NCBI GenBank assembly: GCA_025980465.1
Contig: JAICXJ010000032.1
Span: 1-33,410, forward strand
Reading direction: 5' to 3'
DNA: 33,410 nucleotides
Source: Frankiales bacterium
GTDB lineage: Bacteria; Actinomycetota; Actinomycetes; JAFAQI01
Part shown: positions 10,801 through 12,576 of the stretch, one piece after another
Layout: each line of letters opens with the position of its first letter
How positions within the stretch are numbered: position 1 is the stretch's first letter
Notes under the pieces: generated by a model
The model's input: only the letters and a program-made list of their open reading frames with translations
The model's database searches: none
What the model was told of the DNA's origin: nothing
Translations under genes and position numbers: made by a program

Positions 10801-11319
10801 TCAGCGCTTGGAGTACTGAGGGGCCTTGCGAGCCTTCTTGAGGCCGTACTTCTTGCGCTCCTTGGCCCGAGCGTCGCGGGTGAGGAAGCCGGCCTTCTTC
10901 AGCGGCGGCCGCGCCTCCTCGTCGGTCTCGATGAGAGCGCGCGAGATGCCGAGACGCACCGCACCGGCCTGGCCGGAGACGCCACCACCGTGGACCCGCA
11001 CGAGAACGTCGTAGCGGTCCTGGACATCGAGGGTGACGAGCGGTTCGTTGACGATCTGCTGGTGGACCTTGTTCGGGAAGTAGTCCTCGAGCGACCGGCC
11101 GTTGATGTTCCAGACCCCGGTGCCGGGGATCAGCCGGACCCGCGCGATGGCCTCCTTGCGGCGCCCGGTCGCGCCGGCCGGACCGCCGATGCGCACCTGG
11201 GGCTTGCGCTCCGGGGCCGGTGCCTCGACGACCTCCTCGTCGACAGAATCGGTCTCAGCGACCGCCGCGTCCTCAGGTGCCTCGACGTCGGTCTCGGTCT
11301 CCGTCACGGTCTCACTCAC
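10801..11319 (-). CDS. rpsI: Ribosomal protein uS9 (S9) with acidic N-terminal extension
   Basis: Small-subunit protein whose C-terminal tail reaches the decoding site; here it ends in the invariant [12 protein letters not shown]. 172 residues. The folded part begins near residue 51 ([15 protein letters not shown]), with [10 protein letters not shown] and [14 protein letters not shown] following. Residues 1-37 hold no Lys, Arg or His and are rich in Glu, Thr, Asp and Val, a strongly acidic leader on a basic protein. The start is a GTG whose G is the last base of the rplM TAG stop (TAGTG), so it is translationally coupled to rplM. Actinomycete S9 proteins often carry an acidic N-terminal stretch. 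Confidence 0.97.
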
Positions 11320-11762
11320 TACTGCGCCACCTGCGTGATCTCGTAGGGCACCGGCTGCTGGGCCTGGTGCGGATGCTCGGGGCCTGCGTACACCTTCAGC
11401 TTGCTCGCCATCTGACGGCCCAGCGAGGTGTGCGGAAGCATGCCCTTGACCGCCTTCTCGATCACCCGTTCCGGGCGCTTCTCGAGCAGCTCGGAGTAGG
11501 GCGTCGCGGACAGCCCGCCCGGGTAGCCGGAGTGGCGGTAGGCCAACTTGTCATTGCGCTTGTTGCCGGTGAGGGCGACCTTGCTCGCGTTGACGATGAT
11601 GACGAAGTCACCGGTGTCAACGTGCGGTGCGTAAATCGCCTTGTGCTTTCCCCGCAGCAGCCGGGCGGTCTGGCTGGCGAGCCGGCCGAGTACGACGTCA
11701 GTCGCATCGATGACGTGCCACCGGCGCGTCACCTGGCCGGCCTTCGGTTGGTACGTACGCAC
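11319..11762 (-). CDS. rplM: Ribosomal protein uL13 (L13)
   Basis: Early-assembly large-subunit protein, 147 residues from the chosen start. Conserved stretches include [47 protein letters not shown] and the [20 protein letters not shown] helix region. I choose the GTG at 11762 because GAAGG lies 7 nt upstream and the product begins MRTYQPKAG, matching homologues. The frame is open to a TTG at 11780 but nothing before it resembles a ribosome-binding site. The gene has its own promoter (11857-11886) and an 87-nt structured leader. L13 is known to autoregulate rplM-rpsI in E. coli, so a similar control here is plausible but unproven. Confidence 0.97.
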
Positions 11763-11816
11763 GCGGGTGCCTTCACTCAATTCGGTTCGGATTGCGGCTC
11801 GCGCAGTGTGAACGAG

Positions 11817-11846
11817 GTCCGCCCGCCGCGCAGGCGGACGCCTGCG
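11817..11846 (-). promoter_or_regulatory. Alternative hairpins at the 5' end of the rplM mRNA
   Basis: Two mutually exclusive stems in the rplM leader. Stem 1 pairs CGCAGGCG (11846-11839) with CGCCTGCG (11836-11829), a perfect 8 bp around a 2-nt turn. Stem 2 pairs GTCCGCC (11839-11833) with GGCGGAC (11823-11817), 7 bp around a 9-nt loop, and reuses the 3' arm of stem 1. Stem 1 would begin only about 4 nt after the predicted transcription start. This layout suits an attenuator or an L13-responsive leader, or simply 5'-end protection of the mRNA. Confidence 0.5.
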
Positions 11847-11856
11847 TGACGAAACG

Positions 11857-11886
11857 AGGCTACCTGCGCCTCGCGGGGTGGGTCAA
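11857..11886 (-). promoter_or_regulatory. Housekeeping-type promoter of rplM-rpsI
   Basis: Read on the minus strand, TTGACC (11886-11881) is separated by 18 bp from TAGCCT (11862-11857), a good match to the actinobacterial housekeeping sigma consensus (TTGAC and TANNNT). The predicted transcription start is near 11850, giving a leader of about 87 nt before the rplM GTG. The -35 element lies 15 bp beyond the stop codon of the upstream VOC gene, so there is little room for a terminator between them. Confidence 0.7.
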
Positions 11887-11901
11887 AGTCGCCCGTCACG
11901 C

Positions 11902-12576
11902 TCAGGAATCGGGCGAAAAGACACAGAACTCGTTGCCTTCCGGGTCGGCCATCACGGTCCATTCGATCTCGCTGTCCGGGCGCCGGAGGATACCGGCGCC
12001 GGCGTCGAGAAGCGGGTCGACCTGGCCAATGACGTCCCAGTGGATCCGGTTCTTCACCCTCTTGGGCTCGGGCACCGGCACGAAGTCCATCGTCTCGATC
12101 GGCATCCCCGGCACGCGCTGGACCGTGGAGTAGCCATCGTCGTGGTGGACGATCTCGGCGTCGTACACGCCGCCCCACCACTCGGCGATCGCGTGTGGGT
12201 CGCCGCTGTCGACAACCAGCCCGTGCAGCAGGTCCGGGGGGAGCTCGTCGCGGATGAAGGCGCAGAACTCGCCGCCTTCCGGGTCGGTCATCACCGTCCA
12301 GCGCCCGTCATGCATCGCATCGCCGATCGTCGCCCCGAGTGCTTCGAGGTCGACGAGCGACCGGGCGTAGATGTCGAGGTGCACCCGATGTTTCACGGTC
12401 TTCGGCTCCGGTACCTCATCCAGCCAGATCCGATGTTGCGGTGTCCGGCCGGCCAGGTGGCCGACGTGCTGCGGATCCGCCTCCCACGCCAGCCCGAGGA
12501 CCGCGGCCCAGAACGGACCGAGCCGCCTCGCGTCAGTCGCGTCGAGGCAGAGATCCTTGAAGCTCGCGAGCGGCAT
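11902..12576 (-). CDS. Two-domain VOC-superfamily protein
   Basis: A 224-residue protein made of two tandem glyoxalase-fold repeats of about 105 residues. The repetition is visible in VKHRVHLDI (61-69) versus VKNRIHWDV (174-182), and DPEGGEFCAF (98-107) versus DPEGNEFCVF (211-220). This resembles the glyoxalase-like proteins common in actinomycetes whose substrates are mostly unknown. The frame is open upstream, but the ATG at 12576 starts the fold (MPLASFKDLCLDATD) and lies 1 bp after the stop of the PaiB-like gene, so it is the last gene of an ABC-F/PaiB/VOC unit. A role in detoxification or in binding small molecules is possible; the sequence does not decide. Confidence 0.85.
   Translation of the reverse strand: MPLASFKDLCLDATDARRLGPFWAAVLGLAWEADPQHVGHLAGRTPQHRIWLDEVPEPKTVKHRVHLDIYARSLVDLEALGATIGDAMHDGRWTVMTDPEGGEFCAFIRDELPPDLLHGLVVDSGDPHAIAEWWGGVYDAEIVHHDDGYSTVQRVPGMPIETMDFVPVPEPKRVKNRIHWDVIGQVDPLLDAGAGILRRPDSEIEWTVMADPEGNEFCVFSPDS

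Follow-up and report, generated by a model that had tools for sequence, protein, structure and literature searches.

The rplM-rpsI locus and its promoter

The window, which is the whole stretch of 33,410 nt that was analysed, carries the genes of the ribosomal proteins uL13 (rplM) and uS9 (rpsI), the two sharing one base where rplM ends (Table 1). The neighbouring gene upstream is co-oriented with rplM, stops at 11902 and encodes a protein with a glyoxalase-like domain (Pfam), and the predicted rplM promoter sits between this end and rplM. TTG at 11780 is just the mechanically assigned start of the rplM open reading frame; GTG at 11762 is the most likely translation start, because the conserved L13 start of the relatives is VRTY, an N-terminus common to them, and the Shine-Dalgarno sequence GAAGG precedes it. 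AAGG-like boxes are also found ahead of the rplM start in many relatives. At Thr codon 3 of rplM (11756-11754 in the window) a bias to ACG was noticed, a nucleotide-level constraint beside the start codon.

The promoter TTGACC-18 nt-TAGCCT was not called by a generic sigma-70 scan. A TTGAC-type -35 box followed at equal spacing by TANNNT preceded rplM in 157 of 197 leaders, thus supporting the promoter read in the window, and G11850 is a reasonable prediction from the sequence for the start of the rplM mRNA.

Table 1. Predicted features of the rplM-rpsI locus in the window
Feature	Position	Strand	Remark
-35 box TTGACC of the predicted rplM promoter	11881-11886	-	read from sequence
-10 box TAGCCT (GGTAGCCT)	11857-11862	-	spacer to -35 of 18 nt
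Predicted transcription start, G	11850	-	7 nt past the -10 box; inferred
Alternative stem B, GUCCGCCUGC[GCG]GCGGGCGGAC	11817-11839	-	mutually exclusive with hairpin A
Hairpin A, CGUC.CGCAGGC[GUCC]GCCUGCG.GGCG	11824-11851	-	at the predicted 5' end; from folding and family pairing
rplM leader (predicted 5' UTR), 88 nt	11763-11850	-	both ends predicted
Shine-Dalgarno GAAGG	11770-11774	-	GTG 7 nt downstream
rplM (uL13)	11319-11762	-	start GTG 11762-11760 most likely; Pfam PF00572 Ribosomal_L13, E 4.1e-48
rpsI (uS9)	10801-11319	-	Pfam PF00380, E 2.7e-49

Hairpins at the predicted 5' end of the window leader

An earlier note on this DNA had described two competing stems, of 8 bp and 7 bp, close to the predicted transcription start of rplM. 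The first is indeed a perfect 8-bp inverted repeat in the DNA (CGCAGGCG/CGCCTGCG), its arms are 2 nt apart, and since so short a gap would have to form the loop, the core of hairpin A in the RNA has 7 bp instead, 11846-11840 pairing with 11835-11829 around GUCC. Past one A-C mismatch, four pairs (11851-11848 with 11827-11824) extend the core, and the 28-mer folds at -19.4 kcal/mol. With a start at about 11850 behind the predicted promoter, hairpin A would be 5'-terminal, in keeping with the note, and with a start at 11850 its outermost pair (11851) would be untranscribed. Stem B overlaps hairpin A and excludes it, as the note had said, with 10 pairs in place of 7: 11839-11830 pairs with 11826-11817, including one G-U, at -19.6 kcal/mol versus -13.7 kcal/mol for the 7-bp core of hairpin A.

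The size of hairpin A is not rare, because the window has 47 perfect stems of at least 7 bp with loops of 3-8, versus 19-36 in ten shuffles. The weight of hairpin A is in its predicted place at the 5' end and its conservation, not in mere occurrence. Over 11850-11740 (111 nt) stability did not exceed that of shuffles (z 0.45), and the first 30 nt of the leader were more stable (p 0.010).

Hairpin A in the family of the window

Leaders of rplM were obtained from 9 of the 12 genomes of the window's family, plus one of the order. A 28-nt 5' hairpin was present in 5 of the 9 family leaders (L001, which is the window, L002, L003, L006 and L008), and these five fall on one side of a branch with SH-aLRT 98 in an L13 tree made by a quick method from 58 hand-picked rows. 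MAFFT did not align L002 with the others, so a script was used to pair the five 28-mers ungapped; 52 of 60 cells were paired, and slid versions gave 12-37 of 40-60. Two-sided changes occurred at pairs 1-28, 5-24, 6-23, 9-20, 10-19 and 12-17, all except 1-28 coming from L002. When entire 3' halves were exchanged between the five sequences, 6 of 120 permutations did equally well. From five sequences with 52 of 60 cells paired, hairpin A is suggestive of a conserved r-leader structure.

Folding of the first 30 nt, a length picked after the hairpin had been seen, gave p < 0.05 in 6 of 11 leaders (the five above and L090 of the sister family), with a combined p of 1.4e-6. Lengths of 40 and 50 nt gave combined p values of 0.007 and 0.004, with 1 and 2 of the 11 leaders below 0.05. 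The 5' hairpin of L090 is comparable (p 0.004), that of L149 from another family is weaker (p 0.14), and the family leaders L004, L005, L007 and L009 had no significant 5' hairpin (p 0.46-0.70). A degenerate pattern of hairpin A with zero mismatches was found in 4 of 393 genomes, always in rplM leaders of the family. Allowing up to two mismatches, 106 of 393 genomes matched; the matches with mismatches look like chance, and a reversed control pattern also matched.

A motif opening rplM leaders in Actinomycetes

When aligned on the -10 box, rplM leaders elsewhere in the Actinomycetes open in many cases with GUCGUUGUGYG. The motif GUCGUUGUG, in at least 7 of its 9 letters, opens 109 of the 186 anchored leaders outside the window's family and is absent from the 9 leaders within it. 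It starts 5 nt past the -10 box in 101 of the 105 promoter-anchored leaders that have it. These leaders came from 200 loci, 3 of which had no recognised L13 start and were dropped, and the named loci are the best 80 of at least 587 L13 relatives, rich in Streptomyces, while the fetched genomes were hand-picked among the matches listed. No promoter was found by the pattern used in 40 of the 197; a motif search re-anchored 38 of these, giving 195 leaders with L131 and L195 left out. Several re-anchored leaders are misplaced or one base off (e.g. L114, L157, L166), which lowers the motif count, while a bonus for a nearby motif in the choice of promoter raises it.

A count free of this bonus, GTCGTTGTG in 8 of 9 letters 3-9 nt after TANNNT, gave 93 of 197 leaders, and two control motifs scanned in the same way gave 0 of 197 each. 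With a threshold of 7 of 9 letters where the start was anchored, or of 8 of 9 when leaders were rescanned, 66 of 117 genomes and 26 of the 44 families sampled had the motif, including Streptomyces and many other genera, and 18 of the 44 families were without it.

The motif was specific to one ribosomal protein operon in genome searches. The promoter together with TCGTTGTGCG was found in 18 of 148 genomes, with one match each and all at rplM (17 adjoin rplM by coordinates and the 18th has L13 directly downstream), and the reversed control gave 0. With the shorter motif TCGTTGTG behind the promoter, matches were obtained in 7 of 26 genomes within the class and in 0 of 270 from elsewhere; 7 of these 8 matches were at rplM, the exception lying in G096.

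A covarying stem behind the motif

In the class, the tail GUCGUUGU is followed by a hairpin of variable loop whose 5' arm starts with GYGY. The earlier note had proposed a search of related rplM leaders for covarying stems, and this hairpin answers to it in two alignments, both of which favour pairing by their making, the seeds of covariance model R1 having been trimmed by eye at the 3' arm and A6 having been fitted to the model. Alignment A3 was built from 20 leaders picked by hand; here pairing reached 92.6% of cells versus 83.2% in shuffles (0/500) and 26-50% in slid versions, and 28 cells were two-sided versus 7.8 (0/500); the second and fourth pairs, for example, change among C-G, U-A and U-G. 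Alignment A6 was taken from 67 loci with leader matches, weaker matches and near copies being excluded, and holds 67 leaders (59 distinct); 89.5% of cells were paired versus 79.6% in shuffles and 27-47% in slid versions, with 71 two-sided cells versus 20.8. The weakest measure was the number of pairs with two-sided change, which shuffles reached in 9/500 (A3) and 35/500 (A6). The alignment of the stem is not in doubt for Streptosporangium and relatives, because there it lies between invariant flanks. In a single-sequence fold test, for which 109 leaders had been reduced to 74 clusters, Fisher's combined p was 4.5e-8, and 16 of the 74 clusters were singly below 0.05.

All matches of R1 at E <=0.001 (22 + 22, including seeds and near copies) were in rplM leaders. 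Genome-wide, 13 of 118 genomes matched at E <=0.01, and the five at E <=0.001 were all at rplM. Six of the matches at E <=0.01 were at rplM (G027, G094, G064, G017, G096, G097) and four away from it (G051, G039, G012, G073), those of G075, G028 and G026 standing outside this split.

The leader of the window was recognised by neither R1 nor the second model, R2. No R1 match up to E 1 was obtained in the nine family leaders, nor, with the filters switched off and E allowed up to 10, at the window leader (11824-11851). R2 missed the family leaders and matched only L090 of the sister family (E 4) among leaders of this group; its matches away from leaders in family loci include one in L005 (E 0.023), more than 1 kb upstream and inside an open reading frame. 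What the window does have is a 5' hairpin directly behind an rplM promoter of the form TTGACC-N17/18-TANNNT.

Comparison with known L13 leaders

According to the consulted part of PMC10931766, uL13 of E. coli represses its own operon by binding the 5' UTR. The E. coli or gammaproteobacterial rplM leader is likewise a structured 5' UTR of rplM-rpsI, from which uL13 is taken here by analogy as the ligand. The same part of that paper gives it a 157-nt UTR with three hairpins and the Shine-Dalgarno sequence GGGU, and a long-distance stem is added in the portion of PMC6736130 available to us, whereas the element of Actinomycetes consists of a short tail and a hairpin at the 5' terminus. The rplM leader of the window is not of the E. 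coli type, from which its Shine-Dalgarno sequence GAAGG and its predicted UTR of 88 nt set it apart.

RF00555 (L13_leader) of Firmicutes is likewise an r-leader upstream of rplM. It had no match in the genome of the window, in a search that did find the Bacillus subtilis and Lactococcus lactis controls. At gathering score, no Rfam family, RF00555 included, matched the window. Among 20 actinobacterial loci searched up to E 1, no fitting family, RF00555 included, was found, and the only matches were two weak ones to different families, well away from the L015 leader.

The L13 r-leader of Bacteroidia (Eckert and Weinberg 2020) is likewise a candidate from comparative genomics; in the sections of PMC7247131 at hand it is described for Bacteroidia, and it is set apart here by this description, not by structure. 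The same sections of this 2020 r-leader survey name L13 leaders in E. coli, Firmicutes and Bacteroidia, and its Table 1 has no actinobacterial one. Actinobacterial r-leaders of L31, L17 and S15 come from the same phylum and differ in gene and ligand (S15: PMC4137082, in part). No actinobacterial L13 leader was found in the parts of the open-access literature covered.

Proposed role of the 5' element and alternative explanations

The class-wide element, specific to rplM, 5'-terminal and covarying, fits the logic of the uL13 operator in E. coli, and it is likely, judging from sequence, the actinobacterial counterpart of L13 leaders that the earlier note had suggested. For the window itself this suggestion holds in part: the family has a 5' hairpin of its own, but that of the window is missed by both covariance models. 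As it lies in the same place with the tail motif gone, we infer that the window hairpin is a diverged or replaced form of the class element. For the whole reading, in which the class element would be an autoregulatory uL13 leader and the window would carry a diverged or replaced form of it, the chances appear about even. A fuller version falls slightly short of that and is put forward tentatively: Actinomycetes may have a uL13 leader type of their own, as yet undescribed (GUCGUUGU plus hairpin, in at least 26 of 44 sampled families), which would open the rplM-rpsI mRNA and be recognised by uL13. The family of the window would have replaced the motif, with one subclade keeping a 5' hairpin.

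On this proposal, the rplM-rpsI mRNA would begin near 11850, and a hairpin of some 28 nt at its start would emerge from RNA polymerase before any other structure. This hairpin would occupy the place of the rplM-specific 5'-terminal element of many other Actinomycetes. The class element would be the operator in a feedback loop on the uL13-uS9 operon. When more uL13 is present than 23S rRNA can take up, the free protein would presumably bind the 5' element, and bound uL13 may lower translation or completion of the mRNA; both ligand and repression are carried over by analogy. In the window's family the tail motif would have been lost or replaced, leaving one subclade with its own hairpin.

How Actinobacteria control the synthesis of ribosomal proteins has received little study according to the part of PMC8470358 consulted, and a covarying 5' element of rplM-rpsI gives a direct way to ask whether uL13 regulates itself there. 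If the proposal is true, it would add a further L13 leader type to those of E. coli, Firmicutes and Bacteroidia, and the window's family would represent an r-leader caught in the middle of its turnover, showing how fast such operators are replaced.

Mimicry of 23S rRNA by the element was considered and rejected: on both strands of two loci (G068, G029) parts of the motif and hairpin found no better counterpart than matches that were short or had one mismatch. G000 and G011 gave no 23S match, so that the comparison covers G068 and G029.

The main rival is a generic stabilising role, in which a stem at the 5' end would guard an abundant ribosomal protein mRNA against decay that depends on that end, no specific ligand being involved. 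It would account for the placement of the hairpin at the predicted 5' end and for the subclade stem, whose letters vary while pairing is kept. It does not account for the fixed tail GUCGUUGU of the class element and its restriction to rplM (18/18 strict matches, 7/8 with the shorter motif), which together suggest recognition by something specific, and an unpaired tail of about 8 nt would be less than ideal for protection. We regard this rival as rather unlikely.

That the window hairpin is a functionless product of chance is improbable. Such stems are common in DNA of 68% GC, as the 47 in the window illustrate, the leader with the first codons is no more stable than shuffles, and 4 of 9 family leaders have no significant hairpin. 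Against this stand the location at the predicted start, the combined p for the first 30 nt over the 11 leaders and the two-sided changes.

Pairing of the 5' element with the start codon region (GUGCGYACG), by which the start would be hidden until the 5' hairpin released it, has a low probability. The minimum-energy fold of the window does join the 5' end to the start codon, and the third codon, for Thr, reads ACG in 160 of 197 loci versus 190 of 914 later Thr codons, counted in the 137 loci with the full gene. Over 58 clusters the combined p was 0.02, three control leader segments doing worse, but only 4 of the 58 were below 0.05 and the median p was 0.41; for the family leaders the combined p was 0.43 (11 leaders) and 0.15 (10 leaders). 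The tail GUCGU and ACGAC or ACGAA before the start co-occur in many leaders, without strict covariation.

Very improbable is an attenuator-like switch, in which the choice between A and B would set rplM-rpsI expression: the two are mutually exclusive and near-equal in energy, and the predicted fold alternates between them as the transcript grows, but the competition claimed by the earlier note was not upheld in relatives, where B-like partners downstream were unconserved (combined p 0.12 over 7 leaders, 0/7 below 0.05, the lowest being 0.055 in the window and 0.075 in L006), and B has no U-run behind it, a terminator scan of the minus strand at 11300-12300 having found no G+C-rich stem with a U-run.

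Other rplM leaders

Other conserved leaders were observed ahead of rplM. L120, L123, L133 and L195 (family f36) are without GUCGUUGUG and share a sequence close to GAACGTGAGCCCTCCAC ... GGAGTGGGATTCACGAAC, which may represent another kind of rplM leader that has stems of its own. The leaders of L072 and L130, also without the GUCGUUGUG motif, have GTGCAGTGTTCGTCAGAAG in common. Leaders of the Streptosporangium type (L014, L015, L031, L047, L050 and relatives) carry an invariant GGCGCGTCCGGCGTC 3' of the 5' hairpin (13/13) and an apparent second hairpin (GTCNTCTCC ... GGAGAC), these features lying about 40-90 nt past the predicted start.
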